DNA of 43,980 nt from Candidatus Bathyarchaeota archaeon (GTDB taxonomy: Archaea > Thermoproteota > Bathyarchaeia > Bathyarchaeales > Bathycorpusculaceae), in assembly GCA_017883615.1 (NCBI GenBank), contig JADGNF010000035.1:1-43980 (forward strand). The letters are read 5' to 3'. Position numbers and translations under genes: made by a program. Below, in pieces: positions 20,678-43,980 of this stretch. Position 1 is the stretch's first letter. Each line of letters begins with the position of its first letter. The notes beneath the pieces were generated by a model. The model saw only the letters and a list, made by a program, of their open reading frames with translations. It did not search any database and had not been told where the DNA came from.

Positions 20678-21658
20678 ATGAGCAACAAACTGAAAATAGC
20701 CTTTTACTGGGCAGCAAGTTGCGGCGGCTGCGAAATAGCCGTGCTAGATATCAACGAAAAAATCCTAGACGTAGTAAAAATCGCGGACATCGTGTTCTGG
20801 CCAGTAGCCATGGACATCAAGTACAAGGATGTAGAAGCGATGAAGGACGAATACATCGACATCACATTCTTCAACGGGTCCATCCGCAACTCAGAGCAAG
20901 AACACATGGCAAAGTTGCTGCGTGCAAAATCTAAGACGCTTGTTGCATTCGGCTCCTGTGCTCACGAAGGCTGCGTACCTGGTTTAGCAAACTTGAATGA
21001 CCACGACGAAATCTTTGATCACGTTTACATCAAAGACAAATCAAACGTGAACCCGAACAAGGTTATGCCCAAAATCTCCACTGTCGTGAAGGAAGGCACT
21101 CTCAAGATTCCAGAATTTTACGATACAGTGAAGACTTTAGCACAAACGGTAGACGTAGACTACTTTTTACCCGGTTGCCCACCACCAGTGAAGTTAATCA
21201 GCAACGCTATAGACGCAATCGCCGCGGGAAAGTTGCCGCCCAAAGGCTCTGTTCTTGCCCCGCTGCCGGCAGTCTGTGACGAATGTCCAAGGAAACGTGA
21301 AAATAAGAAAATAAACAAAATTTACCGTGTATACGAGAAGACTCCTGAACCTGAACGGTGTCTAATGGAACAGGGCATAATCTGCATGGGTATGGCGACT
21401 CGAAGCGGATGCGGTGCTCAATGTCTCACAGTGGATATGCCTTGCACAGGATGTGGAGGAGCCGCTCCAAACCAGCCGGAAGTCGGCGCAGGAATGATAA
21501 CCGCATTAGCTTCAATCCTGGGATTAGACAAGGAATCTGGACAATACACAAACGAAGATGTAGTGAAATTGATGGCTCAAGTTAAAGATCCAGTCGGTAC
21601 ATTTTACATGTATAGTTTGCCTGCTTCCATTCTTAAACGCAAGGTGATGAAAAAGTGA
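20678..21658 (+). CDS. mvhG: [NiFe] hydrogenase small subunit, F420-non-reducing (Mvh) type
   Basis: This 326-residue small subunit carries the three iron-sulfur clusters that take electrons from the NiFe site. The proximal cluster starts at SCGGCE (near residues 14-19) and continues with GSCAHEGC and LPGCPPP. The other clusters are in CDECPRKR and the Cys-rich C-terminal SGCGAQCLTVDMPCTGCGG. There is no Tat signal or membrane anchor, so the enzyme is cytoplasmic. It overlaps the large-subunit gene by 4 bp. Methanogen Mvh hydrogenases use MvhD to reach HdrA; MvhD is absent here. Confidence 0.93.
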   Translation: MSNKLKIAFYWAASCGGCEIAVLDINEKILDVVKIADIVFWPVAMDIKYKDVEAMKDEYIDITFFNGSIRNSEQEHMAKLLRAKSKTLVAFGSCAHEGCVPGLANLNDHDEIFDHVYIKDKSNVNPNKVMPKISTVVKEGTLKIPEFYDTVKTLAQTVDVDYFLPGCPPPVKLISNAIDAIAAGKLPPKGSVLAPLPAVCDECPRKRENKKINKIYRVYEKTPEPERCLMEQGIICMGMATRSGCGAQCLTVDMPCTGCGGAAPNQPEVGAGMITALASILGLDKESGQYTNEDVVKLMAQVKDPVGTFYMYSLPASILKRKVMKK

Positions 21659-23106
21659 AAGAAATAACTATAGACCCAATTACAAGACTTGAAGGGCACG
21701 GAAACGTATCCATATTTCTCAACGACAAAGGCGATGTAGAAAGCGCTTACCTCAAAGTTCCCGAACTGCGAGGTTTTGAAAAATTCTGCATCGGACGACG
21801 CGCTGAGCTCATGCCAATCCTCACAACGAGGATCTGTGGAGTTTGCCCCGTTGCTCACCACTACGCCGCAGTCAAAGCCCTAGATGCAGCCTTCAACGTT
21901 GAGCCGCCATCTGCAGCCAAGAAGCTCCGCGAACTCCAATATGTAGGATACTACATCTACGACCACATTTTGCACTTTTACTACTTGGGCGGTCCAGACT
22001 TTATCGTTGGCCCCGACGCACCAGCAGAGAAACGCAACATCTTAGGCGTCATTGAGAAAGCAGGCATGGAAGTTGCAAAAGAAGTCATAAAGCACCGAGC
22101 TTACGGGCAGAAAATCACGCAAATAATCGGCGGCAAAGCCACCCACCCCGTTTCCGGATTGCCCGGAGGAATGAGCAAGGCACTTAACGAGGAAGACCGC
22201 AAAGAAATCCAAGCAATGGCAGAATCGTCAGTCAAATTCGCCCAGTTAACACTCAAAATCTTCCACGACCTCGTATTAGGCAACCCAAAATACCTGGAGA
22301 TGATTAAGAGCGACGCCTACACCATGAACACCTACTACATGGGCACCGTGGACGCCAAGAACAAAGTTAACTTCTACGACGGCAAAGTCCGCGTAGTTGA
22401 CCCGTCAGGCAAAGAGTTCCTCAAGTTCGAAGGCAAAGACTACCTCAAACACATAAGCGAACACGTGGAACAATGGACTTACAGTAAATTCCCCTACCTG
22501 ACGAAAGTCGGCTGGAAAGGCTTCAGCTATGGTCCAGACAATGGCGTTTACCGCGTTGGTCCACTGGGTAGGCTTAATGCATCAGATGGAATGACGACTC
22601 CGCTGGCACAAGCCGAATACGAAGCTATGTTCAAGACGTTGGGCAAACCAGTCCACGGCACACTCGCTTTCCACTGGGCACGTCTAATTGAATTGCAGTA
22701 CGCTGCTGAACGCGCAGTTGAGCTGGCTAAAGACAAAGAAATCACGAGCACTAACATCCGCAACAAACCAGGCGCTCCAGGCGAAGGCGTCGGCGTTGTC
22801 GAAGCAGCCAGAGGCACTCTCATCCACCATTACACTTTAGACAAAGATGCAATGGTCAAAGACGTCAACATGATTGTTGCCACAACCAACAACTACCCCG
22901 CTATCTGCATGAGCATACGCGACGCAGCCAAAGGCTTAATCAAAGGCGGCAAATGCGACCAAGGCATACTCAACAAAATCGAAATGGCGTTCAGAGCTTA
23001 CGATCCCTGCTTCGGATGCGCAACCCACTTTGCAGTAGGACAAATGCCCTTAGAAGTCAAAGTCTACAAAAACAACAAAATGCTTGTCCAGACTCTGAAG
23101 CGGTAA
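21655..23106 (+). CDS. mvhA: [NiFe] hydrogenase large subunit, Mvh type
   Basis: This 483-residue catalytic subunit oxidises or produces H2. The NiFe ligands are in the L1 motif RICGVCPVAHH (near residue 60) and the L2 motif DPCFGCATHF near the C-terminus; all four cysteines are Cys, not selenocysteine. About 20 residues follow the L2 histidine, the peptide normally cut off by a maturation protease such as the HycI-type protein encoded at 26310. The GTG start at 21655 overlaps the mvhG stop, giving translational coupling. It ends the operon, and a pyrimidine-rich tract follows. Confidence 0.95.
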   Translation: MKEITIDPITRLEGHGNVSIFLNDKGDVESAYLKVPELRGFEKFCIGRRAELMPILTTRICGVCPVAHHYAAVKALDAAFNVEPPSAAKKLRELQYVGYYIYDHILHFYYLGGPDFIVGPDAPAEKRNILGVIEKAGMEVAKEVIKHRAYGQKITQIIGGKATHPVSGLPGGMSKALNEEDRKEIQAMAESSVKFAQLTLKIFHDLVLGNPKYLEMIKSDAYTMNTYYMGTVDAKNKVNFYDGKVRVVDPSGKEFLKFEGKDYLKHISEHVEQWTYSKFPYLTKVGWKGFSYGPDNGVYRVGPLGRLNASDGMTTPLAQAEYEAMFKTLGKPVHGTLAFHWARLIELQYAAERAVELAKDKEITSTNIRNKPGAPGEGVGVVEAARGTLIHHYTLDKDAMVKDVNMIVATTNNYPAICMSIRDAAKGLIKGGKCDQGILNKIEMAFRAYDPCFGCATHFAVGQMPLEVKVYKNNKMLVQTLKR

Positions 23107-27057: not shown

Positions 27058-28968
27058 ATGTATTCCTACGCTGGAAAAATACTGCGTGTTAATCTTACTA
27101 CTGGGGAAATAAAAACTGAGCCACTAACTGAAGAAGTGGCGAAGCAGTACATCGGTGGTATAGGCCTCGGAATAAAACTCCTTATGGATAACTCAGTTCC
27201 AGGTGCAGACGCTTACGATCCATCTAATCCACTCATCTACCTGACTGGTCCACTGAGTGGAACCATGGGGCCAACGGGCGGCAACAGCTATGCCGTAGTG
27301 TCTAAATCTCCCGCCACAGGCGGTATTGGCAATGCTGAATCCCACGGTTTCTTCGGACCTGACTTCAAACGGGCAGGCTATGATGCTATCATAATTACGG
27401 GCAAAGCCCCTAAACTAAGCTACTTATGGGTTGACGACGACAAAGTCCAAATCATGAATGCTGAACACATGAAGAACTTCACAGTTAACCACACTGACCA
27501 CGCAATCCGAGAAGAACTCGGAGACTTCTACATCCGCGTCTCTGCCATCGGCGAAGCAGGAGAAAAACTCTGCCGATTTGCGGCAATCATAAACGACGAG
27601 TTTCGCGCCATTGGACGTAGCGGCATGGGCGGCGTCATGGGCAGCAAAAACCTCAAAGCCGTCGCAGTCCGAGGAACACACGATGTCAACGTGGCAAACA
27701 AGCCCGGCTTCATAGAATTCGTCAAACTAATTCATGAACGCATGAAAGGCCCATCAACAAAGAAATACAAGACTTTGGGTACCCCAGAAAACGTTCTTGT
27801 TTTGAATTCACTCTCAGCGCTGGCAACCCGCAACTGGACCAACGCTACATTTGAAGGCGCTAACAAAGTTAGCGGCGAATGGTTAAACGAACACTATGTC
27901 AAGAAAATTGTCGGCTGCGCAACCTGCGGGATGCGTTGCGACCACATCGCTGTTGTCCCCGAAGGTCCCTACAAAGGCAGCACCAGTAGACTCGAGTTTG
28001 AGTGCCTTTGGAGTATGGGTCCACTTTGTGGAGTAGATCGTCTAGACGCAATTATCGAAGCTATGCGTATCACCAATGAGTACGGTATGGACGGCATCAG
28101 CATTGGCGTTGTCGTCGCGTTTGCCATGGACCTATATGAACATGGCATAATTACCAAGGAACAAACTGACGGTATCGACCTCAAATTCGGAAACGCCGAA
28201 GCTATGATTGCGATGATTCACAAAATCGGGAAACGCGAAGGCTGGCTCGGAAGCGCGCTCGCTGAAGGTGTCGCGAAGGCAGCAGAAATTATCGGCGGCG
28301 ATGCTTACAAGTACGCTTGCCACATCAAAGGCTTAGAGCTTCCAGGATACGACCTGCGAACATTGAAGACTGCAGCCCTCGGATTTTCCGTAAGCTTCCG
28401 TGGCGCTTGCCACCTCAGAAACGGAGCCTACTCACCCGACGTAAAGGGCAAGGTGAACCGCTTCAAAATCGAGGCTGGACGCGGCAAAATGATCACCGAC
28501 GAAAGCCACATGTACAACATCATCGACTCGCTCATCGTGTGCAAATTCAGCAGAGGCACCTATTATGACGGTTGGAAAGACCTCACCAACTACTATACAC
28601 TTGCTACCGGAATCCCAATAACCGTTGAAGAAATGACTGCAGACGGAGACCGCATCGAGAATCTCGCAAGGCTGTTTAACATCCGCGAAGGCAAAGGCAC
28701 CCGCAAATACGATGATGTTCCCTACAAGATAAAGAACTTCCCAGTGCCCGACGAGGGACCCGCCAAAGGTGTGTGCGTGAACGATGCGGAGATGGCTGTG
28801 GGCTTAGATGACTATTACGCTTCAAGAGGCTGGACCAAAGAAGGCATCCCAACGATTGAGCGTCTGCAAAAACTAGGCCTGGACAAATATGCTTACATCG
28901 CTGAGAAAGCACTCAAGGAAACCCCGCCTGTGCAAGCGTCTGCCCCAGCAACTGTAGGAGGAGCCTAA
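27058..28968 (+). CDS. aor: Aldehyde:ferredoxin oxidoreductase (tungsten type), copy 1
   Basis: This 636-residue tungstopterin enzyme oxidises aldehydes to acids, or reduces acids, with ferredoxin. It opens with the conserved YAGKILRVNLTTGEI. The [4Fe-4S] ligands are C287, C290, C294 (CATCGMRC) and C495 (LIVCKF), almost the same positions as in Pyrococcus furiosus AOR. Pterin-contact segments such as GIGNAESHGFFGPDFKRAGYDA and GYDLRTLKTAALGFSVSFRGACH are intact. The partner ferredoxin begins 1 bp after the stop. It is a paralogue of the enzyme at 30075. Confidence 0.95.
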   Translation: MYSYAGKILRVNLTTGEIKTEPLTEEVAKQYIGGIGLGIKLLMDNSVPGADAYDPSNPLIYLTGPLSGTMGPTGGNSYAVVSKSPATGGIGNAESHGFFGPDFKRAGYDAIIITGKAPKLSYLWVDDDKVQIMNAEHMKNFTVNHTDHAIREELGDFYIRVSAIGEAGEKLCRFAAIINDEFRAIGRSGMGGVMGSKNLKAVAVRGTHDVNVANKPGFIEFVKLIHERMKGPSTKKYKTLGTPENVLVLNSLSALATRNWTNATFEGANKVSGEWLNEHYVKKIVGCATCGMRCDHIAVVPEGPYKGSTSRLEFECLWSMGPLCGVDRLDAIIEAMRITNEYGMDGISIGVVVAFAMDLYEHGIITKEQTDGIDLKFGNAEAMIAMIHKIGKREGWLGSALAEGVAKAAEIIGGDAYKYACHIKGLELPGYDLRTLKTAALGFSVSFRGACHLRNGAYSPDVKGKVNRFKIEAGRGKMITDESHMYNIIDSLIVCKFSRGTYYDGWKDLTNYYTLATGIPITVEEMTADGDRIENLARLFNIREGKGTRKYDDVPYKIKNFPVPDEGPAKGVCVNDAEMAVGLDDYYASRGWTKEGIPTIERLQKLGLDKYAYIAEKALKETPPVQASAPATVGGA

Positions 28969-30031: not shown

Positions 30032-30074
30032 TTTTCAAATGACTATACACCTTCAAACATTGGAGGACACGTGT

Positions 30075-31931
30075 TTGCTCGGTTACGCAGGTAAAGTTCT
30101 CTACGTCGACTTATCCACCGGAAAGACGCGAACTGAAAAACTCAACGAAGAAACCGCCAAGAAATACATCGGCGGCATCGGCTTAGGCATGAAGCTCTGG
30201 CTTGCAAACTCAACTGCAGGCGTCGACCCGCTTAGCCCCCAAAACCCTCTTGTTTTAGCTCTGGGTCCAGTCTCAGGAACCATGTTCCCAACAGGAGGCA
30301 ACGGTCACGCGTTCATAACAAAGTCACCCGCCACAGGAGCCGTTGGTGAAGCAGTTTCACATGGCACTTTTGGCGCTGAACTCAAACGCGCCGGATACGA
30401 CGCAATTATTTTAACAGGCAAATCGGAACGGCTAATTTACCTTTGGATAGACGACGACTCGGTCCAGCTTCTTGATGCTTCCCAGTTGGCAGGTAAATCG
30501 CCCAGCGAGACCGAAGACGCAATAAAAGACGAAATAGGCGACTACTACGTTCGTGTAGCTTCAATCGGTTTAGCAGGAGAGAAACTTAGCAAAATCGCGT
30601 CCATAATTAACGAGAAAACCCGAGCAGCCGGGAGAACCGGTTTGGGCGCAGTTTTAGGCTCAAAAAATGTCAAGGCGATCGCCGTACGCGGCACACGCGA
30701 CATTACAGTCGCGAAACCCGAAGAATTCATGGACATGGTTAGAGACTTTCATGAACGCATGAAAGGCCCATCCACGCAGAAATACCGCACCCTTGGCACC
30801 GTTGAGAATATTCTCGTTAACAACACCATGTTCTGCATGCCCACACGCAACTACAGTACTGCCCACTTTGAAGATGCTGAAAAGGTAAGCGGGGAAGCAC
30901 TAAACGAAAAATACGTTTCAAAAATAATTGCGTGCAGCTCTTGTCCAATGCGTTGCGAACACGAAGCCGTAGTCCGCGAAGGACCCTACAAAGGCGCAAT
31001 GGCAAGAATCGAGTATGAATCACTTTGGGCTCTGGGACCTTACACAGGCGTAAACAAACTTGACGCCATCATAAAAGCAGCCGAACTCTGCAACTATTAC
31101 GGTTTAGACGCCCAAAGCACAGGTGTAACCGTCGGGTTCGTGATGGACTGCCACGAAAAAGGTATACTCACCCACGATGACCTTGGCGGAATCGACGCGC
31201 ACTTTGGAAACGCAGATGCACTTTTACAGTTGATTGAGAAAATTGGCAAGCGCGAAGGCATCGGCAACATCCTCGCTGACGGCGTTAAAGCAGCCGCAGC
31301 AAAAATTGGCAAAAACTCCGAGAAGTTGGCTCAGCATATTAAAGGATTAGAAGTCACAGGTTACGACTTGCGATGCCTCAAAACCGCAGCTTTAAGCTAC
31401 GCAGTTTCCTTCCGAGGCGCCGACCACAACCGAAGCAGCGCCTACGCCGTAGACCTCAAAGGCAAAGTTGACCGCCTCAAAGCAGAAAAAGGAAGAGGTA
31501 AACTCGTTAAAGACCTCGAAGATACGTACGCTCTGCTTGATTCTTTCATAGTCTGTAAGAACGCCAGAGGAACATTCTACAAGGACCTGCAAGACATGGC
31601 AAAACTCTACAGCTCAGTAACCGGAATCGACATGTCCGTGGAAGAGCTCGCGGCATCGGCAGAACGGATAAACACTATTGCTAGACTAATTAACACCCGC
31701 GAAGGTCTAACCCGCAAAGACGACACACTACCGTGGAAAGTTATGAATGAACCCATTCCTGATGATGGACCAGTGAAAGGTGCCTTCGTAACCCAAGATG
31801 AGCTTGATTTGATGCTCGACGATTATTACCTGTCCCGTGGATGGACACCAGACGGGGTGCCAACAACTAAAAAGCTAAAGGAACTGGGCATGGAAGAATT
31901 CAAAAGCATAGTTGAACCCAAGGAGGCATAA
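30075..31931 (+). CDS. aor: Aldehyde:ferredoxin oxidoreductase (tungsten type), copy 2
   Basis: This is the second AOR paralogue, 618 residues from the TTG at 30075, which sits 8 bases after GGAGG (30062-30066). With this start the protein begins LGYAGKVLYVDL, like family members, and the cluster cysteines fall at C287, C290, C294 (CSSCPMRC) and C494. These numbers match copy 1 and the Pyrococcus enzyme. An ATG at 30039 would add 12 unrelated residues. Segments AVGEAVSHGTFGAELKRAGYDA and GYDLRCLKTAALSYAVSFRGA are kept. Several active-site-proximal residues differ from copy 1 (for example DHNRSSAYA versus CHLRNGAYS), suggesting a different aldehyde. Confidence 0.95.
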   Translation: MLGYAGKVLYVDLSTGKTRTEKLNEETAKKYIGGIGLGMKLWLANSTAGVDPLSPQNPLVLALGPVSGTMFPTGGNGHAFITKSPATGAVGEAVSHGTFGAELKRAGYDAIILTGKSERLIYLWIDDDSVQLLDASQLAGKSPSETEDAIKDEIGDYYVRVASIGLAGEKLSKIASIINEKTRAAGRTGLGAVLGSKNVKAIAVRGTRDITVAKPEEFMDMVRDFHERMKGPSTQKYRTLGTVENILVNNTMFCMPTRNYSTAHFEDAEKVSGEALNEKYVSKIIACSSCPMRCEHEAVVREGPYKGAMARIEYESLWALGPYTGVNKLDAIIKAAELCNYYGLDAQSTGVTVGFVMDCHEKGILTHDDLGGIDAHFGNADALLQLIEKIGKREGIGNILADGVKAAAAKIGKNSEKLAQHIKGLEVTGYDLRCLKTAALSYAVSFRGADHNRSSAYAVDLKGKVDRLKAEKGRGKLVKDLEDTYALLDSFIVCKNARGTFYKDLQDMAKLYSSVTGIDMSVEELAASAERINTIARLINTREGLTRKDDTLPWKVMNEPIPDDGPVKGAFVTQDELDLMLDDYYLSRGWTPDGVPTTKKLKELGMEEFKSIVEPKEA

Positions 31932-34339: not shown

Positions 34340-34694
34340 ATGAACATTCTAGTTGTCTACGACAGTAAAACTGGAAACACGGAAAAAATGGCGAAAGCCG
34401 TAGCTAAAGGCGCACAAGAAACTGGCGCCAAAATCGTTCTGAAACGCGCCGAAAACGTGAAAAACCAAGACTTCGAGGATGCAGACGGTATCCTCATGGG
34501 TTCACCCACTTACTTTGGGCAAATGTCCGCCAAACTCAAGCACATAATCGACGACTCAATCGGCGTACATACGAGGCTCACGGGAAAAGTCGGAGGAGCT
34601 TTCACCAGCAGCGGCGGAACAGCGACGGGACCTGCAGGCATGCGAAGAACTTGGTGAAAAAGTTGCAGTTCTGATTCAGAAATTGAAGGCGTGA
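34340..34694 (+). pseudogene. WrbA-like flavodoxin with an internal deletion and frameshift
   Basis: Residues 1-97 are a good WrbA/flavodoxin N-terminus: the FMN phosphate loop YDSKTGNTEKMA, MGSPTYFGQMSAKLKH, and VGGAFTSSGGTATG. The frame then stops at 34657 after eight unrelated residues. In another frame the typical C-terminal helix appears (LQACEELGEKVAVLIQKLKA, 34632-34691, stop TGA 34692-34694). The segment that normally lies between, about 30-50 residues forming the last strands of the FMN site, is missing, so a deletion near 34628-34632 removed it and shifted the frame. The product could hardly bind FMN. The remnant ends 3 bp before the tRNA gene. Confidence 0.75.
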
Positions 34695-34697
34695 TAG

Positions 34698-34772
34698 TGG
34701 GCCCGGCCGGATTTGAACCAGCGATCAACAGATTATGAGTCTGGCGCTCTAGCCGGACTGAGCTACGGGCCC
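34698..34772 (-). tRNA. tRNA-Met (CAT)
   Basis: A full cloverleaf lies on the minus strand. The acceptor GGGCCCG (34772-34766) pairs with CGGGCCC (34705-34699). The D arm is GCTC...GAGC, the anticodon loop CTCATAA has CAT at 34737-34735, and the T arm is GCTGG TTCAAAT CCGGC. The discriminator is A at 34698; CCA is not encoded and no intron is present. A CAT anticodon could also mark tRNA-Ile2 (modified C34). Elongator Met is the default, since the acceptor lacks the initiator features. Confidence 0.92.
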
Positions 34773-36408: not shown

Positions 36409-36642
36409 ATGGTTAATTGGAGAGAAGACATCGAATTCGTTTATGCTTTGTTCATGCTTGTTTCATGCATAGTTGTATTCTTCGTTTTGTATGACTCAAT
36501 GAGTTTAACGTTGGCAGCAGTAGCAACCGGTGTGATTGTTTTGGTGGAAGCCGCAATTGCATTCGCAGCTCTTGAAAGCGACACAGCCATAGCCAACTGG
36601 GAAAAACTCGGAAAGAAAGAACATGAAAGTGAGCAAAAATGA
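36409..36642 (+). CDS. Small two-TM membrane protein
   Basis: This 77-residue protein has two hydrophobic segments (about residues 8-28 and 32-55) joined by a very short loop, then a charged cytoplasmic tail ending KKEHESEQK. I choose ATG 36409 over the adjacent TTG at 36406; the AGGTGAT at 36398-36404 is the ribosome binding site. Its stop overlaps the start of the next gene (ATGA), so the two are translated together. No family is recognised; a membrane adaptor for the downstream protein is a reasonable guess. Confidence 0.6.
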   Translation: MVNWREDIEFVYALFMLVSCIVVFFVLYDSMSLTLAAVATGVIVLVEAAIAFAALESDTAIANWEKLGKKEHESEQK

Positions 36643-37565
36643 CGCGCCCCCAATCGAAACGGAAACTTCAAAACCCATTCGAAAAACCATCTGTACAAAT
36701 CTCTTCGAAGGCCTATCTGAGAAACTTTGGAAAAGGCAAACTCAAATTTGCCGACGACGCCTTAAAGTTTTACCAATATAGTGGGCGATTGACAAAAAAG
36801 AAATCGCTGGCTAAACTAATTCCGTTAGCTAAAATTGAGAAGGTAACTTTGGTTTCAGACGAGTTAAACGTCACTTCACAAGGAATAACCGAAAGCTTTG
36901 TCATCAATGATAAAGCATTCGCCCAATTCGTCTACCTAAAAACAAACGAGTTTCTCTCGCAGCCTGAAGAATCAAAAGAAACGCAGATACCTTCCACAAT
37001 CGAAGCTCCCGCGAAACAACAGCTTGGACAAACATTAGACGTTTCCCTCTCAATAATTGATTCATTATTTGACGGCCTCATGTGTTTGCAAGGGCGAGTA
37101 GACTGGAATCAAATCACTAACCATGTAAAAAAATGCGAAGAGGACGTCAAAAAAATCGACAAAGGCATCTTTGAAACCGTCAACTTGGATTTTTCGGTGC
37201 TTTTCTCAGCCGCTACCGATCGTAATGTAGAATCGTTTACTAAAGAAGCCTATCGCCTCTTGGAAACGCTTCATGGAAACTTCCAAGGAATAGCGCCAGA
37301 ATTCCTGAAAGCAAAAAATGTTGTCACGTCATACTACATTCTAAATGACACCATGTTAGCCGTGGTCGTAGGCGACGCGAACGTCGAGGATGAACTAACC
37401 CAGCTATCTCTCTCGCTTGCTGATTTGTCAAAAGATATCGGCTTGAACGCGATAGAAGTTGTTAATCCTATGAATAATCTGCTTAAGGAGAAACAAAAAG
37501 ACCCCTATGCCCAAGAAGCTAGGGCAATTTTCAAAAAACAGGTAGCAGCTGCAATGGCAAAGTAA
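36639..37565 (+). CDS. Hypothetical protein with a possible PH-like domain
   Basis: This is a 308-residue cytoplasmic protein. Residues 25-105 alternate short strands and end in a helix (KLKFADDALKFYQYSGRL, then IPLAKIEKVTLVSDELNV, FVINDKAFAQFVYLKTNEF), a pattern typical of bacterial PH/GRAM-like folds. This is inferred from pattern, not from a family match. Residues 110-125 form a linker. Residues 130-300 are mostly helical with a small alpha/beta part (NVVTSYYILNDTMLAVVVGDA). It is coupled to the two-TM gene by a 4-bp overlap and sits directly upstream of the anchored coiled-coil protein and the FtsZ/tubulin-like gene. Confidence 0.6.
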   Translation: MTRPQSKRKLQNPFEKPSVQISSKAYLRNFGKGKLKFADDALKFYQYSGRLTKKKSLAKLIPLAKIEKVTLVSDELNVTSQGITESFVINDKAFAQFVYLKTNEFLSQPEESKETQIPSTIEAPAKQQLGQTLDVSLSIIDSLFDGLMCLQGRVDWNQITNHVKKCEEDVKKIDKGIFETVNLDFSVLFSAATDRNVESFTKEAYRLLETLHGNFQGIAPEFLKAKNVVTSYYILNDTMLAVVVGDANVEDELTQLSLSLADLSKDIGLNAIEVVNPMNNLLKEKQKDPYAQEARAIFKKQVAAAMAK

Positions 37566-37616
37566 TCTTCTTTTTTGCCATCTAAAATTTTTTTGTATTC
37601 CCAGAATGTACACAAA

Positions 37617-37633
37617 AGTTATATGTTAAATAA
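37617..37633 (+). promoter_or_regulatory. TATA box for the anchored protein and tubulin-like operon
   Basis: AGTTATATGTTAAATAA lies 31-47 bp before the ATG at 37664, with TGAGGGAG as ribosome binding site in between. The downstream tubulin-like gene has no separate promoter visible and should be on the same transcript. Confidence 0.5.
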
Positions 37634-37663
37634 TTCAACATAAACAGGCTGAGGGAGTGCAAA

Positions 37664-38629
37664 ATGAAAAGAGGAATGTTAGCCATATTAGTCGTAAGTC
37701 TATTATTACTTGTACCCATTCTTTCAATAACACAAGTGAAAGCACAAACAACCGGAAATTGGATAACCACCTCCGCAATAACCGACCGGAATACTGGTCA
37801 AGCCCTAGATCCAAACGGAATTCCTGCTGGGGCAGACCTAGAAATATCCATAACAATCCAAGTAACAACTTCCAGCCCATCTACCACTCTAAAACTTTCC
37901 ACATCAATGGATCATCCTTCTCAAGGTAACTATTGGGAGATTCACGGAAGCTACGGCGGCATCGACACATCCACATACAACCCCAACACACAATCCGTGA
38001 GCTTTAAGCAAACCATTGGGACACTCACAATATCTTGCTTTGGTAAAATAAAACAAGACATAACTCAAACCGTAATTTCGGGAATAACTTTCGACAAGGC
38101 AGTCGCTAAAGACCTCGTTACACTCACTGACCAGACAAACAATCAGCTGGACAAAATTAGCGTAAACATCGTGGACGCTGCCATCACCGACTTCTCCAAC
38201 AAGTTGGCTTCCGCTAGAGCAGAGTACCAGACCTTGAGCGATCAAGCCATAGACCAAGCTTACCTTAACCTTTACCAAACCGTAATTAACCAAGCCACAA
38301 GCCAAGCAAACTCCGGACTAGTGGACAGCGCCATCGGCACCCTAGACCAGCTTTCACAAGCCGAAAGCGCAGCCGCGCCTTCCACAACAAGCACTCCTAT
38401 AGAGGCTACTCTATTTCTGCCAGCCGTAATTGTGTTAGTAATTATCGTCGTTTTGGTCGCCTTCTTGATGGTGAAAGCCCGCGGAAAAGTAAGCTATGAC
38501 AAATTGGTAATTGAAGATCAAATCAAAGACTTAGAAGGGTTAACTCTCCGAGCCTCAAAAGTCGACAGAAACTTAACTGTAAGCTTGGAGAGCATAAAGG
38601 ACAGGTTGAAGAACCTGGTTGAGGTGTAA
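37664..38629 (+). CDS. Signal-anchored surface protein with cytoplasmic coiled-coil tail
   Basis: In this 321-residue protein, a signal peptide (residues 1-27, likely cut after VKA) is followed by a strand-rich, Ser/Thr-rich outer domain (about 30-145) and a helical outer stalk (145-235). A short Ser/Thr linker leads to one membrane segment (249-270) and a 50-residue cytoplasmic tail predicted as coiled coil (VIEDQIKDLEGLTLRASKV). I know no named family. Its stop lies 5 bp before the probable ACG start of the FtsZ/tubulin-like gene, and the end of this gene supplies that gene's Shine-Dalgarno. An anchor linking envelope and filament is a natural hypothesis. Confidence 0.75.
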   Translation: MKRGMLAILVVSLLLLVPILSITQVKAQTTGNWITTSAITDRNTGQALDPNGIPAGADLEISITIQVTTSSPSTTLKLSTSMDHPSQGNYWEIHGSYGGIDTSTYNPNTQSVSFKQTIGTLTISCFGKIKQDITQTVISGITFDKAVAKDLVTLTDQTNNQLDKISVNIVDAAITDFSNKLASARAEYQTLSDQAIDQAYLNLYQTVINQATSQANSGLVDSAIGTLDQLSQAESAAAPSTTSTPIEATLFLPAVIVLVIIVVLVAFLMVKARGKVSYDKLVIEDQIKDLEGLTLRASKVDRNLTVSLESIKDRLKNLVEV

Positions 38630-38634
38630 ACGCT

Positions 38635-41328
38635 ACGAGACCATATCAAAACACAGTTCAAGTAATCGGTCTTGGATCAGCAGGAACAAACATCGTAGAA
38701 GTCTTCATGACTAGCAAGAAAACCATGGAAATGCTAGAGAGCGACATCTCACGCGTTTCACTTCTAGCTATCGACATCGCGGATCCTGAAATCAGAGCAC
38801 TACTAGAAACCAACGAACAAGTCATGAAGGCCATGGTTAAAGCAGGCATTCCAAAAGAACGGATGCGTTTAGTTGCACAATCAATAAAGTTCCCCACCGC
38901 CGAAACAATGTTTGACTTCGTCAATCTAAAATTCAACGAATATCTAGTAAACGAAGGCGCCAAAATGGGTGATTTTACCCCTTGGTTAACTTCCACAATG
39001 GCTATACCTCCTATGGCTGGAGGTGCTGGCAGAAGAAGAGCACTGGCTAAAGCCATCTACGCTTTAAACTACTACCAACTTGGCATCGTGAAGAGCGCAA
39101 TTAACACTTTCAAAGAACAGGCCTTCTCCTCAATCGTCACGCCAACAGTAGTTTTGTTTTTCGGTCTAGGCGGGGGAACTGGAAGTGGCGTATTCTTTGA
39201 CTTCGCAAAACACCTCCGGAAGGTCCTCGGCTCCAGCGTGCCAATAATTGCATTTGTAATTTCTCCATGCGGTGGCGACGATCCTCCAGCGAAAGGATGC
39301 TCATCATTTACTGCCATGAACGAACTTTCATTGTTCTTGAACAAGGATTACAACGAATACATCACAAAGACGTTTGGCGAATGCTACAGAAACCCCCTCA
39401 ACGCACTGATTTACTTGCCGCTGTTACCTGCTTACTCAAAGATAGGTAACATAGTTTCTGCACGCCGAGAAATGGATGAAATGGTCGTTGACATGCTCTA
39501 TATGCTAATGGACTTCGATCTTGCAGACTTAATGGGCGGCATCGGAACCGAGGTGGGATTAGGCAACAACTTTGTACATACCCTCGGCTCAGTGAAAGTG
39601 ATGTACCCCGTTGAGGACTACATTCTTGCACTCAAGTTGTACTTCGAAAGACTAGAAATACTCTATAATCTTCGAAAAGAAAAACTAGCCATAATGGATG
39701 CGATTCGAGACATATTCATCCAGACCAATGGTGACCTTGTCGAACTCTATAGAAAATACCTCATAAAAATTGGCGAATACGTTGACGAAGAGTTTGAGAG
39801 CAGAGTCAACAATGTAATCCACAGCAATCCAAAACTAGATGAAGACTACATCCTACATGTTCGAGCAATCGAGGATCAAATGGAAGCTTGGCTCAACGAA
39901 ATAATGAAGTTCCTGACAACCATCAAGTTGATGACAAGGACCGGACCAATTGAAGAAACAATCGTTAACCTGATGCTGCGCAAAGAAGGTTCAAGAAAAA
40001 TTGACAATCTCGAAGCCTTGCTACGGTCACTTCAGAAGACACACTTAGATTTCCCGGAAAGGAAGAACGAAATATTTGAGCGGCTAAAACACTTGATACC
40101 GAGCAGCCAGATTTTCACTTTGAGGCAAAAGAGGCTCATGGAAGACTTCATGGACCTCGCTGACATGACTGAAAAGTCTCTAGCTACGCTAAAGTTTTAT
40201 GACGAAAGCAGGTACCTCACAGAAGCGGTTATTGGATTCTATGAAGTCATGCCTGAATCCGAGGCGGAACTTGCAGAATTGCGGAATATTCGGTCAGAGC
40301 TCTCTACGTTGTATCTAATGATGCAGTTAATGCTCAGGACGCCATCTGACGAAAGAAAGATGATAGATGAACACATGACGTACTTAAACGAAGTAAAATC
40401 CATATTCCTCATGAAAAAATCTGATGCTGAAAACGGACTGCTACTTGTTCAGGAAGCTATTCAACGCAAAGATTTCGATAAGAGGAAGGCCGAACGTGAT
40501 CTTAAGAGAACTTTCGGTTCCAAGCGCTATGCCACAGAACAACATACAAGTGTTGATCGCGACTTAAAGAGGCTAGAAGAAGAACAAGCAATGGCACTTG
40601 ATGAACTTAACCGGATGGATCAGGTTGTTATGCTTTATGATGTGCTTGCGACTCAGATTGACCCAGTATCGGAATATCGGAAGATGCTCAATAAGATTGC
40701 AGACTTAACTGAAGAGTACAACAACAAGATTTCTGACATTATTCAGCCCAAGAAGTACTTTGAGCGTTCAACAGAGCTTACCCAAGCAGAGCAAATGAAG
40801 ATCATTTTCAAGATTCTAATGGAACAAGAGGACACATTGACTAAGAAAGCGATTCTTAAGCAGGTCCTAGACATGGCACACTTCAAAGACTACATGAAGA
40901 GCCTGATACGGATTTTCAAAACACCAAGCGTTTTGGGCTTCAAGCCGACATACAAGACAGATTACCTCTGGGTTACCGTTTCCACGCCAGAAGACCTTTG
41001 GAGTGAGGACTTAACGCAGGAAATCTACACTTCTTTGGCTGGCTACGTTACCAGCGAAGTGTCACGGACTATAACAGTTCGCGTGGTCGACAGCCGGGAT
41101 GAATGGACTACCAGAATCATGGTTGTAGCGGGCAGAGGAAAACCTGAAGACATGGAAGCATTTGACGAAATGCAGTTGCTCTATACCAAATCTAGCTCTT
41201 TCGAAAGACATCTCAGCCGCTCCTACTTGCTTGAACATGGCGTCGCAGCAGTGCCGCTAATTAACGACATCAATCACAACAACAACCTTAACGGTAAGAA
41301 ACTAACCGCTTCCGATGAAAAACCTTAG
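38635..41328 (+). CDS. Large FtsZ/tubulin-superfamily GTPase with a long helical insertion
   Basis: The protein has about 897 residues from a probable ACG start. The GTPase domain holds T1 GLGSAGTN (12-19), a T2/T3 region (SLLAIDIAD; AGGAGRRRALAKA), T4 signature GLGGGTGSG (177-185) and a T7 loop DFDLADL (293-299) equivalent to NVDFADV of FtsZ, keeping the aspartates that drive GTP hydrolysis across a filament. About 430 mostly helical, charged residues follow (324-764). Then comes a segment resembling the FtsZ C-terminal domain (776-835: YLWVTVSTPEDLW...RIMVVAGRG). The first canonical ATG (38707) would delete T1 and is not the start. FtsZ is about 360-400 residues, so this is far larger. Its closest described relatives are probably the divergent long tubulin-like/FtsZ-like families of bacteria and archaea. 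Confidence 0.85.
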   Translation, partial: TRPYQNTVQVIGLGSAGTNIVEVFMTSKKTMEMLESDISRVSLLAIDIADPEIRALLETNEQVMKAMVKAGIPKERMRLVAQSIKFPTAETMFDFVNLKFNEYLVNEGAKMGDFTPWLTSTMAIPPMAGGAGRRRALAKAIYALNYYQLGIVKSAINTFKEQAFSSIVTPTVVLFFGLGGGTGSGVFFDFAKHLRKVLGSSVPIIAFVISPCGGDDPPAKGCSSFTAMNELSLFLNKDYNEYITKTFGECYRNPLNALIYLPLLPAYSKIGNIVSARREMDEMVVDMLYMLMDFDLADLMGGIGTEVGLGNNFVHTLGSVKVMYPVEDYILALKLYFERLEILYNLRKEKLAIMDAIRDIFIQTNGDLVELYRKYLIKIGEYVDEEFESRVNNVIHSNPKLDEDYILHVRAIEDQMEAWLNEIMKFLTTIKLMTRTGPIEETIVNLMLRKEGSRKIDNLEALLRSLQKTHLDFPERKNEIFERLKHLIPSSQIFTLRQKRLMEDFMDLADMTEKSLATLKFYDESRYLTEAVIGFYEVMPESEAELAELRNIRSELSTLYLMMQLMLRTPSDERKMIDEHMTYLNEVKSIFLMKKSDAENGLLLVQEAIQRKDFDKRKAERDLKRTFGSKRYATEQHTSVDRDLKRLEEEQAMALDELNRMDQVVMLYDVLATQIDPVSEYRKMLNKIADLTEEYNNKISDIIQPKKYFERSTELTQAEQMKIIFKILMEQEDTLTKKAILKQVLDMAHFKDYMKSLIRIFKTPSVLGFKPTYKTDYLWVTVSTPEDLWSEDLTQEIYTSLAGYVTSEVSRTITVRVVDSRDEWTTRIMVVAGRGKPEDMEAFDEMQLLYTKSSSFERHLSRSYLLEHGVAAVPLINDINHNNNLNGKKLTASDEKP

Positions 41329-41331
41329 TGG

Positions 41332-42459
41332 CTAATCAGTTAAGACCTTTATGAGGTCTTGCCACTCTTTTTCTTTTATGTAACCGTTTTTCTCCGCGTA
41401 AACTTTTATTTCCTTTGCTTTCTTATCTGCTGACTCAACCATCTCAGCCAAGTCAAAACCTCCAACAAACAAGATGAGGTCTATTCGGTCGCTCAAATCC
41501 TCAACATATATGGGTTCGCTCACGTGGACAGACTTGAGACTTGTTTTTTCATTAAACCATTCTTCAACCCAAAATTCGATTTGGCTTTGTGAAAGTTTCT
41601 CTTTCAGATGGCGTGGTGCACGGACAAGGACGTAAAGCATGGTCGCCGTGGACATGTCGAACTGGATAAAGGGTCTGATCAATGTGCTGTCAAGTATGTT
41701 TTTGAATGAACCGTAGATTTTTAGGCTGGCTCCGGTGGCTACAAGTGCGGTGAACATTTTAAGATTAAATGATTTGGATAACTCGAGAAACTCTTGATTG
41801 AATTCTTCTTTTTCTAACGCCAACTCTATGACGTAGTTAAGAACGCGGTTTCCTTTGAGGACTGAGCCTTTTCTATCTACGCCGACGTAGTTTTCGAGGG
41901 CTTCTCTTTCTATCAGGATTTGTGTGAGCCCGTTTGTCATGCATTTTGCCATGGACCAAAGTGTATTGAATTGGGCATCCGCTGGCTGAAGATGAGACGG
42001 TACAATTGCGAATGCTACGGAATTTACATTCCCCTCTTGGAAGCGGGCAGTTAAGTCAGGTAATAGAGCACTCCCCACCCCTTCCCATAAAGATGCCACC
42101 ATAATGGCTCCATATAGTTCGTCGATGGGTTTGCTTTTCAACTTCTCAACGATCGCGTCGTGTTCTGCGATGTATTTTTGGACGTTGAACCAGTAGTGGG
42201 TATCAGCTTTTTCGTCTATACCAATGGTTTCGTTGTTTTCTTTGGTTGTTTTTTTCGATTTGGATTTTCCTTGTTTGGTTTTTTGTACGAAAAATTTTAG
42301 GAGTTCTTCGTTTTCGTTTATGTCGGCGCTTTTGAGGAGAATTTGAGAAGAATAGTCGCCGATTGAAATTATTGCGCGCTGAGGAAACATTGGTTTTAGC
42401 ATTGATATGTGTTTTTGTATACTAGCGTTTAAGTCAAGAGTCACTTTTTCAGCGGACAT
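41332..42459 (-). CDS. Degenerate FtsZ/tubulin-fold protein, probable partner of the large GTPase
   Basis: This 375-residue protein follows the FtsZ order with degraded motifs. A T1-like strand-turn, AIISIGDYSSQIL (29-41), has lost the glycine loop. A T4-like VASLWEGVGSALLPDL (121-136) stands where GGGTGSG would be. These are followed by AFAIVPSHLQP, a conserved-type helix (NTLWSMAKCMTNGLTQILIE), a T7-like region (SFNLKMFTALVATG) lacking the aspartates, and a C-terminal-domain-like segment (MLYVLVRAPRHL...IDLILFVGGF, 274-334). Residues 60-85 are a Lys-rich linker. It probably cannot hydrolyse GTP. It is convergent with the large GTPase, 3 bp apart. The homology is my inference from motif order and should be tested by structure prediction. 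Confidence 0.65.
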   Translation of the reverse strand: MSAEKVTLDLNASIQKHISMLKPMFPQRAIISIGDYSSQILLKSADINENEELLKFFVQKTKQGKSKSKKTTKENNETIGIDEKADTHYWFNVQKYIAEHDAIVEKLKSKPIDELYGAIMVASLWEGVGSALLPDLTARFQEGNVNSVAFAIVPSHLQPADAQFNTLWSMAKCMTNGLTQILIEREALENYVGVDRKGSVLKGNRVLNYVIELALEKEEFNQEFLELSKSFNLKMFTALVATGASLKIYGSFKNILDSTLIRPFIQFDMSTATMLYVLVRAPRHLKEKLSQSQIEFWVEEWFNEKTSLKSVHVSEPIYVEDLSDRIDLILFVGGFDLAEMVESADKKAKEIKVYAEKNGYIKEKEWQDLIKVLTD

Positions 42460-42473
42460 CAGCCAAACTCACG

Positions 42474-42511
42474 ATAAAGCTTTAAGACCAAACGTTGCAA
42501 ATAAAGCTTTA
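42474..42511. promoter_or_regulatory. Crossed divergent promoters with paired TAAAGCTTTA boxes
   Basis: ATAAAGCTTTA occurs at 42474-42484 and 42501-42511, each containing the perfect palindrome TAAAGCTTTA. Because each box is the wrong distance from its nearest gene but 39-52 bp from the farther one, the left box probably serves the rightward membrane-protein gene (start 42523) and the right box the leftward FtsZ-fold gene (start 42459). Confidence 0.5.
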
Positions 42512-42522
42512 GACGATGCACG

Positions 42523-43980
42523 TTGGCCTCAGAGAAGAAACGGTTTAGAGATCATTTCAAGTTAGGAAAATCCAAAGAGCCTAAGGAACCTCAGGAATCC
42601 AAAGCTGAACCAGACCAATCGACGCCGCTAAAGAAGCAGCGCAAGTCTTACTTAGACTCCCTTAGGGACGTTACTGTTGGGTCCTACGAGAAACGCATGC
42701 AGAAGGAAAACAAAGACTTAGCCAACGAGGGTAGAGGGGCTCGAATCGCAGCGTTTGTTTTGACTTTAATAAGCATGGCGCTTGTTATGTCGTTAATTCC
42801 CTTTTTACCGCAGCCTTTACCGATTTTGGTAGCTGTATTGATTGCGTTTGCGGTTTACTTTAGCCCTGCGGTTGGCATGTCTGTGGGTTCTCTTTTCATC
42901 GTTTTTAGCATTCTGTATCAATTGTCCCTAGTTGATTTCATCGCAATGCTCGGTTCAACTATGGTTCGTGTGTTGTTCATTTCATTGTTAATTTTCTTCT
43001 TTGTGGCGCTTGCCATTCGTTTCCGAACTTACGAAAACGCTATAGGAATAAACCTGGGCATAATCGCAGCTGTACTGTTGTTTTCCAATTTCACCTTCTT
43101 TATGGCAATTCCGCTGCTTTTGACCGTGGCGATTCTTTTCAAGAGAACGCAGGCGGGATTGGCTTTCGGTTATTATCTAATGATTTCCGTGCCGATTATG
43201 GTGATGCAGTACTTCACTCACATCCTGACGATAACCCGCACGGATTTCTGGAATGACCCAACAGCTGTTACTCCAATCTATACTTCCTTATCCTCAGCTT
43301 TTACGAGTGCACAAACCGGGGTTGCCCATTTCAAACTATTTGATTTATCGCAGACGCTAGTATCGATTGGCAACAATGTCATTGAGGTACCGCCTGTTCA
43401 ATCTCACACTGTTCTACAGGCAGCGAACCAGTACGTTAACTCGTTCCCGGGTGTGGTTTTACTTATTGTGATTGTTGGGGGTTTCGTTTGGGCTATTTCA
43501 TTTATTTTGCCTTGGCTTACAAGTAACCTTAATTTGAGAAAGGGTGGAGTCGTTTCCCCGATTTTAGCTGCTGCGGGCTTAACTGCGTTGTTTTTCTTGT
43601 TAGCGTCTTTTCTTCAGGGTCCGCTGTCCTTTTCGATGAAAGTTAGCTCTACAAACATGGTGCTTGGGGTTTTGTCTTCGTTCGCTTTTACAATTCCACT
43701 TGCCATGCTTAACTTTGCGCCTAAAAGGCGCGAGGAAACCGAAGAAAATGTCGGGACAATAACAAGCAAAGTTGAAGGTCTAATGACGAAGGTATCAGCT
43801 TTTGAAGATACAATGGGAAAAGTCAAAGGCCATGTGCCGGTAGATGTACGTGATTCGGAAATCAGGTTGAACTTGATCAAAGATCGACTCGCTGCCTTTC
43901 TGGGTCAAGTGCAGGATCAAAGGCTCAGTCTACCTGAGACTGTTAGGATGCTTGAAGAGTTGAAAGTTAATTTGGGCCAA
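42523..43980 (+). CDS. Polytopic membrane protein with cytoplasmic coiled-coil C-terminus (runs off window)
   Basis: The frame is open for 486 codons to the window end, from a TTG at 42523 (the nearest upstream stop is TAA at 42502). Residues 1-72 are charged and cytoplasmic (KKRFRDHFKLGKSKEPKEP). About six to seven membrane segments (76-232) follow, then an outer loop of about 75 residues (235-308) and about three more segments (310-397). A cytoplasmic, heptad-like region (400-486+) has KVEGLMTKVSAFEDTMGKV and RLNLIKDRLAAFLGQVQDQ. No transporter motif is recognised. The C-terminal part resembles in style the cytoplasmic tail of the protein at 37664, so both may contact the tubulin-like filament (inference). 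It is divergent from the degenerate FtsZ-fold gene. Confidence 0.75.
   Translation, partial: MASEKKRFRDHFKLGKSKEPKEPQESKAEPDQSTPLKKQRKSYLDSLRDVTVGSYEKRMQKENKDLANEGRGARIAAFVLTLISMALVMSLIPFLPQPLPILVAVLIAFAVYFSPAVGMSVGSLFIVFSILYQLSLVDFIAMLGSTMVRVLFISLLIFFFVALAIRFRTYENAIGINLGIIAAVLLFSNFTFFMAIPLLLTVAILFKRTQAGLAFGYYLMISVPIMVMQYFTHILTITRTDFWNDPTAVTPIYTSLSSAFTSAQTGVAHFKLFDLSQTLVSIGNNVIEVPPVQSHTVLQAANQYVNSFPGVVLLIVIVGGFVWAISFILPWLTSNLNLRKGGVVSPILAAAGLTALFFLLASFLQGPLSFSMKVSSTNMVLGVLSSFAFTIPLAMLNFAPKRREETEENVGTITSKVEGLMTKVSAFEDTMGKVKGHVPVDVRDSEIRLNLIKDRLAAFLGQVQDQRLSLPETVRMLEELKVNLGQ

Follow-up and report, generated by a model that had tools for sequence, protein, structure and literature searches.

A conserved archaeal gene module with a tubulin-type GTPase, a degenerate tubulin-like partner and two membrane proteins looks like a membrane-anchored filament system

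Proteins of the FtsZl1 group (PF13809, Tubulin_2) were assigned to predicted membrane-remodelling loci linked to vWA proteins by Makarova and Koonin in 2010 (PMC2875224). In that analysis, T6-H7 and an FtsZ-like C-terminal domain were not identified in FtsZl1, and filament formation was left open (PMC2875224). Bathyarchaeia have also been noted for non-canonical FtsZ-like sequences of unknown role (PMC9723716). Here we describe a bathyarchaeal gene module that looks like an undescribed membrane-anchored filament system. No description of it was found in the literature searched, an absence that is not proof.

The window analyzed is a whole contig (G000:C73, 43,980 bp) of an archaeal genome of 1.73 Mb that is 95% complete, and the relatives sampled were Bathyarchaeota/Bathyarchaeia genomes, including 'Candidatus Bathycorpusculum'. 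The gene cluster lies at the right end of the contig, and gene F is truncated because position 43980 is the contig end. All of the gene features described in a sequence-only reading of this DNA, which had proposed a membrane-linked cytoskeletal or membrane-remodelling cluster around two FtsZ-fold genes, are present in the sequence. The features are as follows.

36409..36642, + strand: gene A, a 77-aa two-TM peptide with hydrophobic segments at aa 10-28 and 35-53; a doubtful member of the system
36639..37565, + strand: gene B, 308 aa, with a predicted PH/PTB-like domain (aa 19-115) followed by a helical domain
37664..38629, + strand: gene C, 321 aa, with an N-terminal hydrophobic signal, an ectodomain, one TM segment (aa 248-266) and a conserved cytoplasmic helical tail
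38617..38629, + strand: putative Shine-Dalgarno-like GAGGTG overlapping the C stop region and positioned to serve the ACG of D (position approximate, by sequence inspection)
38635..38637, + strand: probable ACG start codon of D, from codon conservation among loci
38635..41328, + strand: gene D, an 897-aa tubulin/FtsZ-type GTPase with a helical/coiled-coil insert of ~440 aa
41332..42459, - strand: gene E, a 375-aa FtsZ/tubulin-fold protein convergent to D, with degenerate T1 and T4
42523..43980, + strand: gene F, a polytopic protein with ~9 TM segments and a long cytoplasmic helical region, truncated by the contig end

A Pfam scan of the cluster returned Tubulin_2 for D and a weak Tubulin match for E as its only matches, and an NCBIfam scan of the cluster genes gave no match above cut-off. 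Elsewhere in the window, two aldehyde ferredoxin oxidoreductase genes lie near each other (27058-28968 and 30039-31931), with hydrogenase-like subunits close by (20678-23106), and a flavodoxin-like short ORF (105 aa) ends just ahead of an opposite-strand tRNA-Met (34697-34772; region 34340-34772).

With the large GTPase as query, the check that the sequence-only reading had proposed, the neighborhood proved to be conserved: C, E and F are kept with D across bathyarchaeal families. The gene order and orientation C+ D+ E- F+ was found in every bathyarchaeal locus of sufficient length, L047 alone having an insertion between D and E. In a control of 25 loci, C, D, E and F were each homologous in 588/588 ordered cross-group pairs, compared with homologues in 11% of pairs for the first upstream gene (counted anywhere in four slots) and 1% for the first downstream gene. 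Flanks at 1-11% against 588/588 make the borders of the module sharp, and the linkage of C, D, E and F is not due to chance (588/588 pairs versus 0-11% for flanking genes). Neighbors of the conserved GTPase thus clearly do not vary at random; genes beyond the module vary, and C, E and F do not. In Bathyarchaeia, E is convergent to D and F is divergent from E, so that the module genes do not form one transcript there, a point against the filament reading.

D was present in 11 of the 100 relatives, the weakest match (G008) being a 26%-identity fragment that was not counted as D, and in 39 of the 256 class genomes. A profile search of 398 phylum genomes detected D in additional Thermoproteota families, in which C, E and F also stay with it as recognizable homologues. 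Five of these genomes (G262, G290, G565, G250 and G527) carry a C-D-F-E operon on a single strand, with a possible B next in most, and G566 has C-D followed by an inverted E candidate and then F. In profile comparisons, homology was supported for the distant F (5e-32) and E (2e-12), and only suggested for the G566 candidate for E (0.004) and for the distant B candidates (0.003, with the bathyarchaeal B profile the best of five and aligned over the PH-like part). In G210, D was found alone, with no match to C, E or F among its neighbors. G527 carries D as two neighboring ORFs that part where the coiled-coil insert begins (L088 8514-9767 and 9806-11170), possibly a genuine two-gene form or else a disrupted gene.

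The match of D to PF13809 Tubulin_2 (4e-12) clears the curated cut-off, and its score for canonical FtsZ (TIGR00065) is 14 bits, below the cut-off of 295. An AlphaFold2 model of D, built with 31 sequences, had a mean pLDDT of 81 and a pTM of 0.72, and Foldseek placed FtsZ, TubZ and tubulin at the top of its matches. VIA-align superposed the model on CetZ1 with a Z-score of 26.7 (317/330 residues, 3.4 A rmsd), and since this alignment spans model residues 6-855, D has both FtsZ domains, one on either side of the insert. The GTPase domain occupies aa 1-323 and the FtsZ-type C-terminal domain aa 777-852, with ~440 helical residues inserted between them. As modelled, D is a complete tubulin/FtsZ fold with a helical insert, in agreement with the FtsZ fold claimed for it earlier. 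Confidence in the model is low around aa 120-150 and 305-310, and this weighs against the filament reading, as does the size of the insert, which could hinder lateral or longitudinal assembly.

The T4 loop GGGTGSG (aa 179-185) is found in all members of the D family. Helix H7 (aa 273-292) leads into a T7 loop of sequence DFDLAD (aa 293-298), in which all 31 sequences have Asp295 and Asp298. GGGTGSG and xFDxAD persist beyond Bathyarchaeia into the distant families, the latter as xxDxAD there. D is apparently an active GTPase, judging from its sequence, with both halves of the polymerization-coupled site kept. The T7 acidic residues of FtsZ and tubulin act on the nucleotide of the neighboring subunit, and their conservation in D consequently argues for longitudinal assembly. 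It also bears on the idea that D is a GTP switch that forms no filaments, with E as its regulator. The large insert of D, the missing nucleotide motifs of E and the fact that filaments have so far been deduced rather than seen would all suit such a switch, yet residues that act only across the FtsZ/tubulin subunit interface are conserved across the phylum, and we regard the switch as quite improbable.

The structural matches raise another interpretation, that the module is a cytoskeleton of the CetZ kind, in which D filaments beneath the membrane set cell shape or support motility and the membrane proteins just tether them, with no remodelling. The best structural matches of D are three CetZ structures, its distribution is patchy and apparently non-essential (39/256 class genomes) alongside FtsZ or ESCRT-III, and passages of PMC9723716 cite literature on a role of CetZ in shape. 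CetZ, however, does not have the long insert, and here the GTPase gene is always linked to those of a dedicated ectodomain protein and a polytopic one. This interpretation is possible, though we hold it to be distinctly less probable than a system that acts on the membrane.

The start of D required separate attention. Initiation at the first ATG in D (38707) was rejected, since this codon is downstream of the GTP-binding T1 loop and a protein begun there would lack the loop. Among 22 loci of the window's family with an intact D N-terminus, the codon just ahead of the conserved (R/K)xYQN is ACG at 20 loci, ATG at L068 and TTG at L054; in a second family, an ATG or TTG nearby serves as the D start. 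The D starts concerned are those of the window (38635-38637), L013-L019 and L043-L055, with the C stop a few bases upstream. By inspection, 17 of the 20 ACG loci have no ATG, GTG or TTG from the nearest in-frame stop up to the ACG. Among the remaining Thr codons in D, 12% are ACG; for independent sequences the chance of 20/20 would be ~3e-19, but these sequences are not independent. A Shine-Dalgarno-like GGGATGTGA or GAGGTG sits shortly before D, overlapping the 3' end of C. Taken together, it is most likely from the sequences that D initiates at ACG 38635, an exceedingly rare start codon, possibly through re-initiation once C has been translated, a mechanism that would hold D below C in amount. 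We rejected a C-D fusion produced by frameshifting or stop read-through: among genomes, D is in frame 0, +1 or -1 with respect to C, and the ACG is fixed. No conserved ACG start in archaea was described in the literature searched, which is not proof of absence. One consequence of the conserved ACG is that automatic gene callers begin D downstream of its nucleotide-binding loop, and this truncation may partly explain why D has been overlooked; the conservation also suggests regulated non-canonical initiation in archaea.

E is the second FtsZ-fold protein of the cluster. On its own it matched PF00091 weakly (0.0055), and 12 of 28 family members match PF00091. The E family profile matched the Asgard tubulin AtubB2 (3e-6), Methanosaeta CetZ (3zid; 2e-5) and also FtsZ, bearing out the second FtsZ fold proposed from the sequence. 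Comparison of the D and E profiles gave weak similarity around T4 alone. In place of a GGGTGSG-type T4, E has a WDGVGSA-like sequence, its T1 is IGEY-like, and these motifs are degenerate in 28/28 members. T1 and T4 are degenerate in six distant E candidates as well, which likewise have no GGGTGSG. E is best read, from these motifs, as a pseudo-tubulin lacking the nucleotide motifs. Distant E homologues (L066 4950-5990, - strand; L088 13383-14393) start with a CxxGH...CxxC zinc-ribbon-like motif that is absent from bathyarchaeal E.

Both membrane proteins that had been described around the GTPase are present: C, a signal-anchored protein with a conserved cytoplasmic helical tail, and F, a polytopic protein with a cytoplasmic helical region that is cut by the contig end. 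The tail of C, which ends in a SLESxKDRLKxLVGM-like sequence, is more conserved than the ectodomain (0.72 versus 0.51), a pattern that a docking segment would be expected to show. F combines eight to nine TM segments with a cytoplasmic helical C-terminal region of ~400 residues, and its complete relatives are ~770-985 aa long with a 400-aa helical C-terminus. The C tail (38560-38626) ends in IKDRLKNL, and the cytoplasmic part of F (about 43850-43880) contains IKDRLAAFL. This short common motif might be a docking site for D or E, or possibly a chance resemblance. Neither family gave a convincing Pfam match, and SecE, RIFIN, MscL, PspB and other sub-threshold matches for A, C and F were discarded as far below cut-offs and inconsistent among members.

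The architecture of C and F would also suit a scaffold for secretion, surface assembly or transport, in which F is a channel or transporter core, C a surface module, and D with E a GTP-driven cytoplasmic platform. C has an ectodomain, F combines ~9 TM segments with a long cytoplasmic part, and a reviewer of the 2010 paper suggested that FtsZl1 proteins act in transport or signalling (PMC2875224). Pfam scans of 31 C members and 27 F members nevertheless found no known transporter, channel or secretion domain, and we consider a transport scaffold unlikely.

The remaining genes, A and B, had been described as a two-TM peptide coupled to a possible PH-like protein. Both are present, and the stop of A overlaps the ATG of B (ATGA), coupling A translationally to B. 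A was nevertheless rejected as a conserved partner, with no homologue in relatives and no consistent two-TM peptide ahead of B elsewhere, and B lies in the cluster in some genomes only. The PH-like guess for B held up in its predicted fold: seven strands (residues 22-89) and a helix (92-106) are predicted at its N-terminus, as in a PH-type sandwich with its helix cap, and VIA comparison with PH, PTB and FERM-F3 domains gave Z-scores of 10-12.5 over 80-90 residues. The Foldseek E-value was only ~0.01, so the assignment of B to a predicted PH/PTB-like fold rests on the Z-scores and topology. B gave no convincing Pfam family match, and a PDB sequence search with the B and F profiles returned nothing convincing. 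B lies directly after F in nine genomes (G007 and eight of a second family), and in the window it lies upstream of C instead. In most genomes of the window's family B is outside the cluster, and many have B relatives at other sites, in some cases as several copies. B is thus a partial member of the module. Several genomes of one genus have PH-like B relatives outside the cluster (L096-L106), sometimes in two or three copies and often with a conserved 'ALDFIVNVLKEHEKDLDKLI' protein and proteins with signal peptides close by.

From the gene linkage, the folds and the motifs kept or lost, we infer polymerization, contacts and a cellular role as follows. We put the probability at roughly 60% that the module is a membrane-anchored filament system, with GTP-dependent D filaments tied to the membrane by C, F and probably B and with E as a non-hydrolyzing partner or regulator. 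D would bind GTP and assemble head to tail, its T7 aspartates completing the GTPase site of the next subunit as in FtsZ and tubulin, and its helical insert would reach out from the filament, acting as a spacer or as an arm for docking. The conserved cytoplasmic tail of C and the helical cytoplasmic half of F would hold the filament at the cytoplasmic membrane, the C ectodomain would couple it to the cell surface, and B, where present, would be a PH-like adaptor. E, with an FtsZ fold and no nucleotide motifs, could be a non-hydrolyzing co-subunit, cap or regulator. The output may be local shaping of the membrane or cell envelope and not obligatory division. The position of B outside the cluster in most family genomes and the lack of conservation of A count against this system. 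At slightly less than even odds, the module would be a distinct class of tubulin-based membrane machine found widely in Thermoproteota, comprising an active giant GTPase with its coiled-coil insert, an obligate pseudo-tubulin and two dedicated membrane proteins, with D kept low and coupled to C through its conserved ACG start. Of the two descriptions in the sequence-only reading, 'membrane-linked cytoskeletal' is well supported by the anatomy of the proteins, and 'membrane remodelling' is a suggestion that goes beyond it.

A membrane-shaping role for the filament system is consistent with the presence of another division machine, as ESCRT-III was found in the window genome and in 95 of 100 relatives. 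That near-universal distribution also speaks against D being an alternative division machine that replaces FtsZ. Such a replacement would account for the absence of an FtsZ match from the window genome and for the lower frequency of FtsZ in genomes with D (12/39) than in those without (136/217; Fisher p 3e-4, uncorrected for kinship). However, 12 genomes have both D and FtsZ, and six genus-mates of the window genome (G001-G006), all with ESCRT-III matches, have neither D nor a detectable FtsZ. D is therefore unlikely to be an obligatory divider, and of the readings weighed here replacement of FtsZ is the least probable.

If the filament reading is right, the module provides a compact parts list for an archaeal cytoskeletal system: an active tubulin, a dead tubulin, two membrane anchors and a PH adaptor. 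Its hosts are TACK-group archaea, a group relevant to how the eukaryotic cytoskeleton arose.

Compared with FtsZl1, D resembles that group in exceeding the Tubulin_2 cut-off, in having an N-terminal FtsZ domain that carries GGGTGSG and leads into a long coiled coil, in its linked membrane proteins and in its co-occurrence with other division systems. In contrast to FtsZl1, whose C-terminal domain is mostly helical, the model of D has a recognizable H7, T7 and C-terminal beta-alpha FtsZ-type domain, and the filament question is thus directly testable with one protein. The module also differs in its second, degenerate FtsZ-fold protein, in its fixed partners C and F, and in lacking vWA, kinase, OmpA and P-loop GTPase partners. 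Pfam scans of the whole C, E, F and B families found no vWA, protein kinase, P-loop GTPase or OmpA domain, in line with the earlier remark that VWA- and OmpA-type partners were not seen. The module is therefore not the vWA/OmpA FtsZl1 system, even though D exceeds the Tubulin_2 cut-off. FtsZl1-type proteins with N-terminal TM segments occur in other single-contig phylum genomes (L090 6552-9707 and L091 7807-10857); they have the GGGTGSG loop and a possible FDLxD T7 in common with D, and different neighbors.

The CetZ proteins of Haloferax and Methanosaeta are the closest solved folds to D (Z 25.5-26.7), a likeness of fold only, and they have neither the 440-residue insert nor the partner genes of the module. 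Canonical FtsZ with SepF shares with D the GTPase fold and the catalytic T4 and T7 motifs, but FtsZ is a separate gene where present in these genomes, D is ~2.5 times longer, and no SepF-like partner is recognizable in the module by Pfam. The bacterial tubulins BtubA/B/C and the Asgard AtubA/AtubB likewise comprise two tubulin-fold proteins encoded together, and the best sequence match of E is AtubB2. The module described here differs from them in the loss of the nucleotide motifs from E, in the very unequal sizes of D and E, and in the presence of membrane proteins in the locus.
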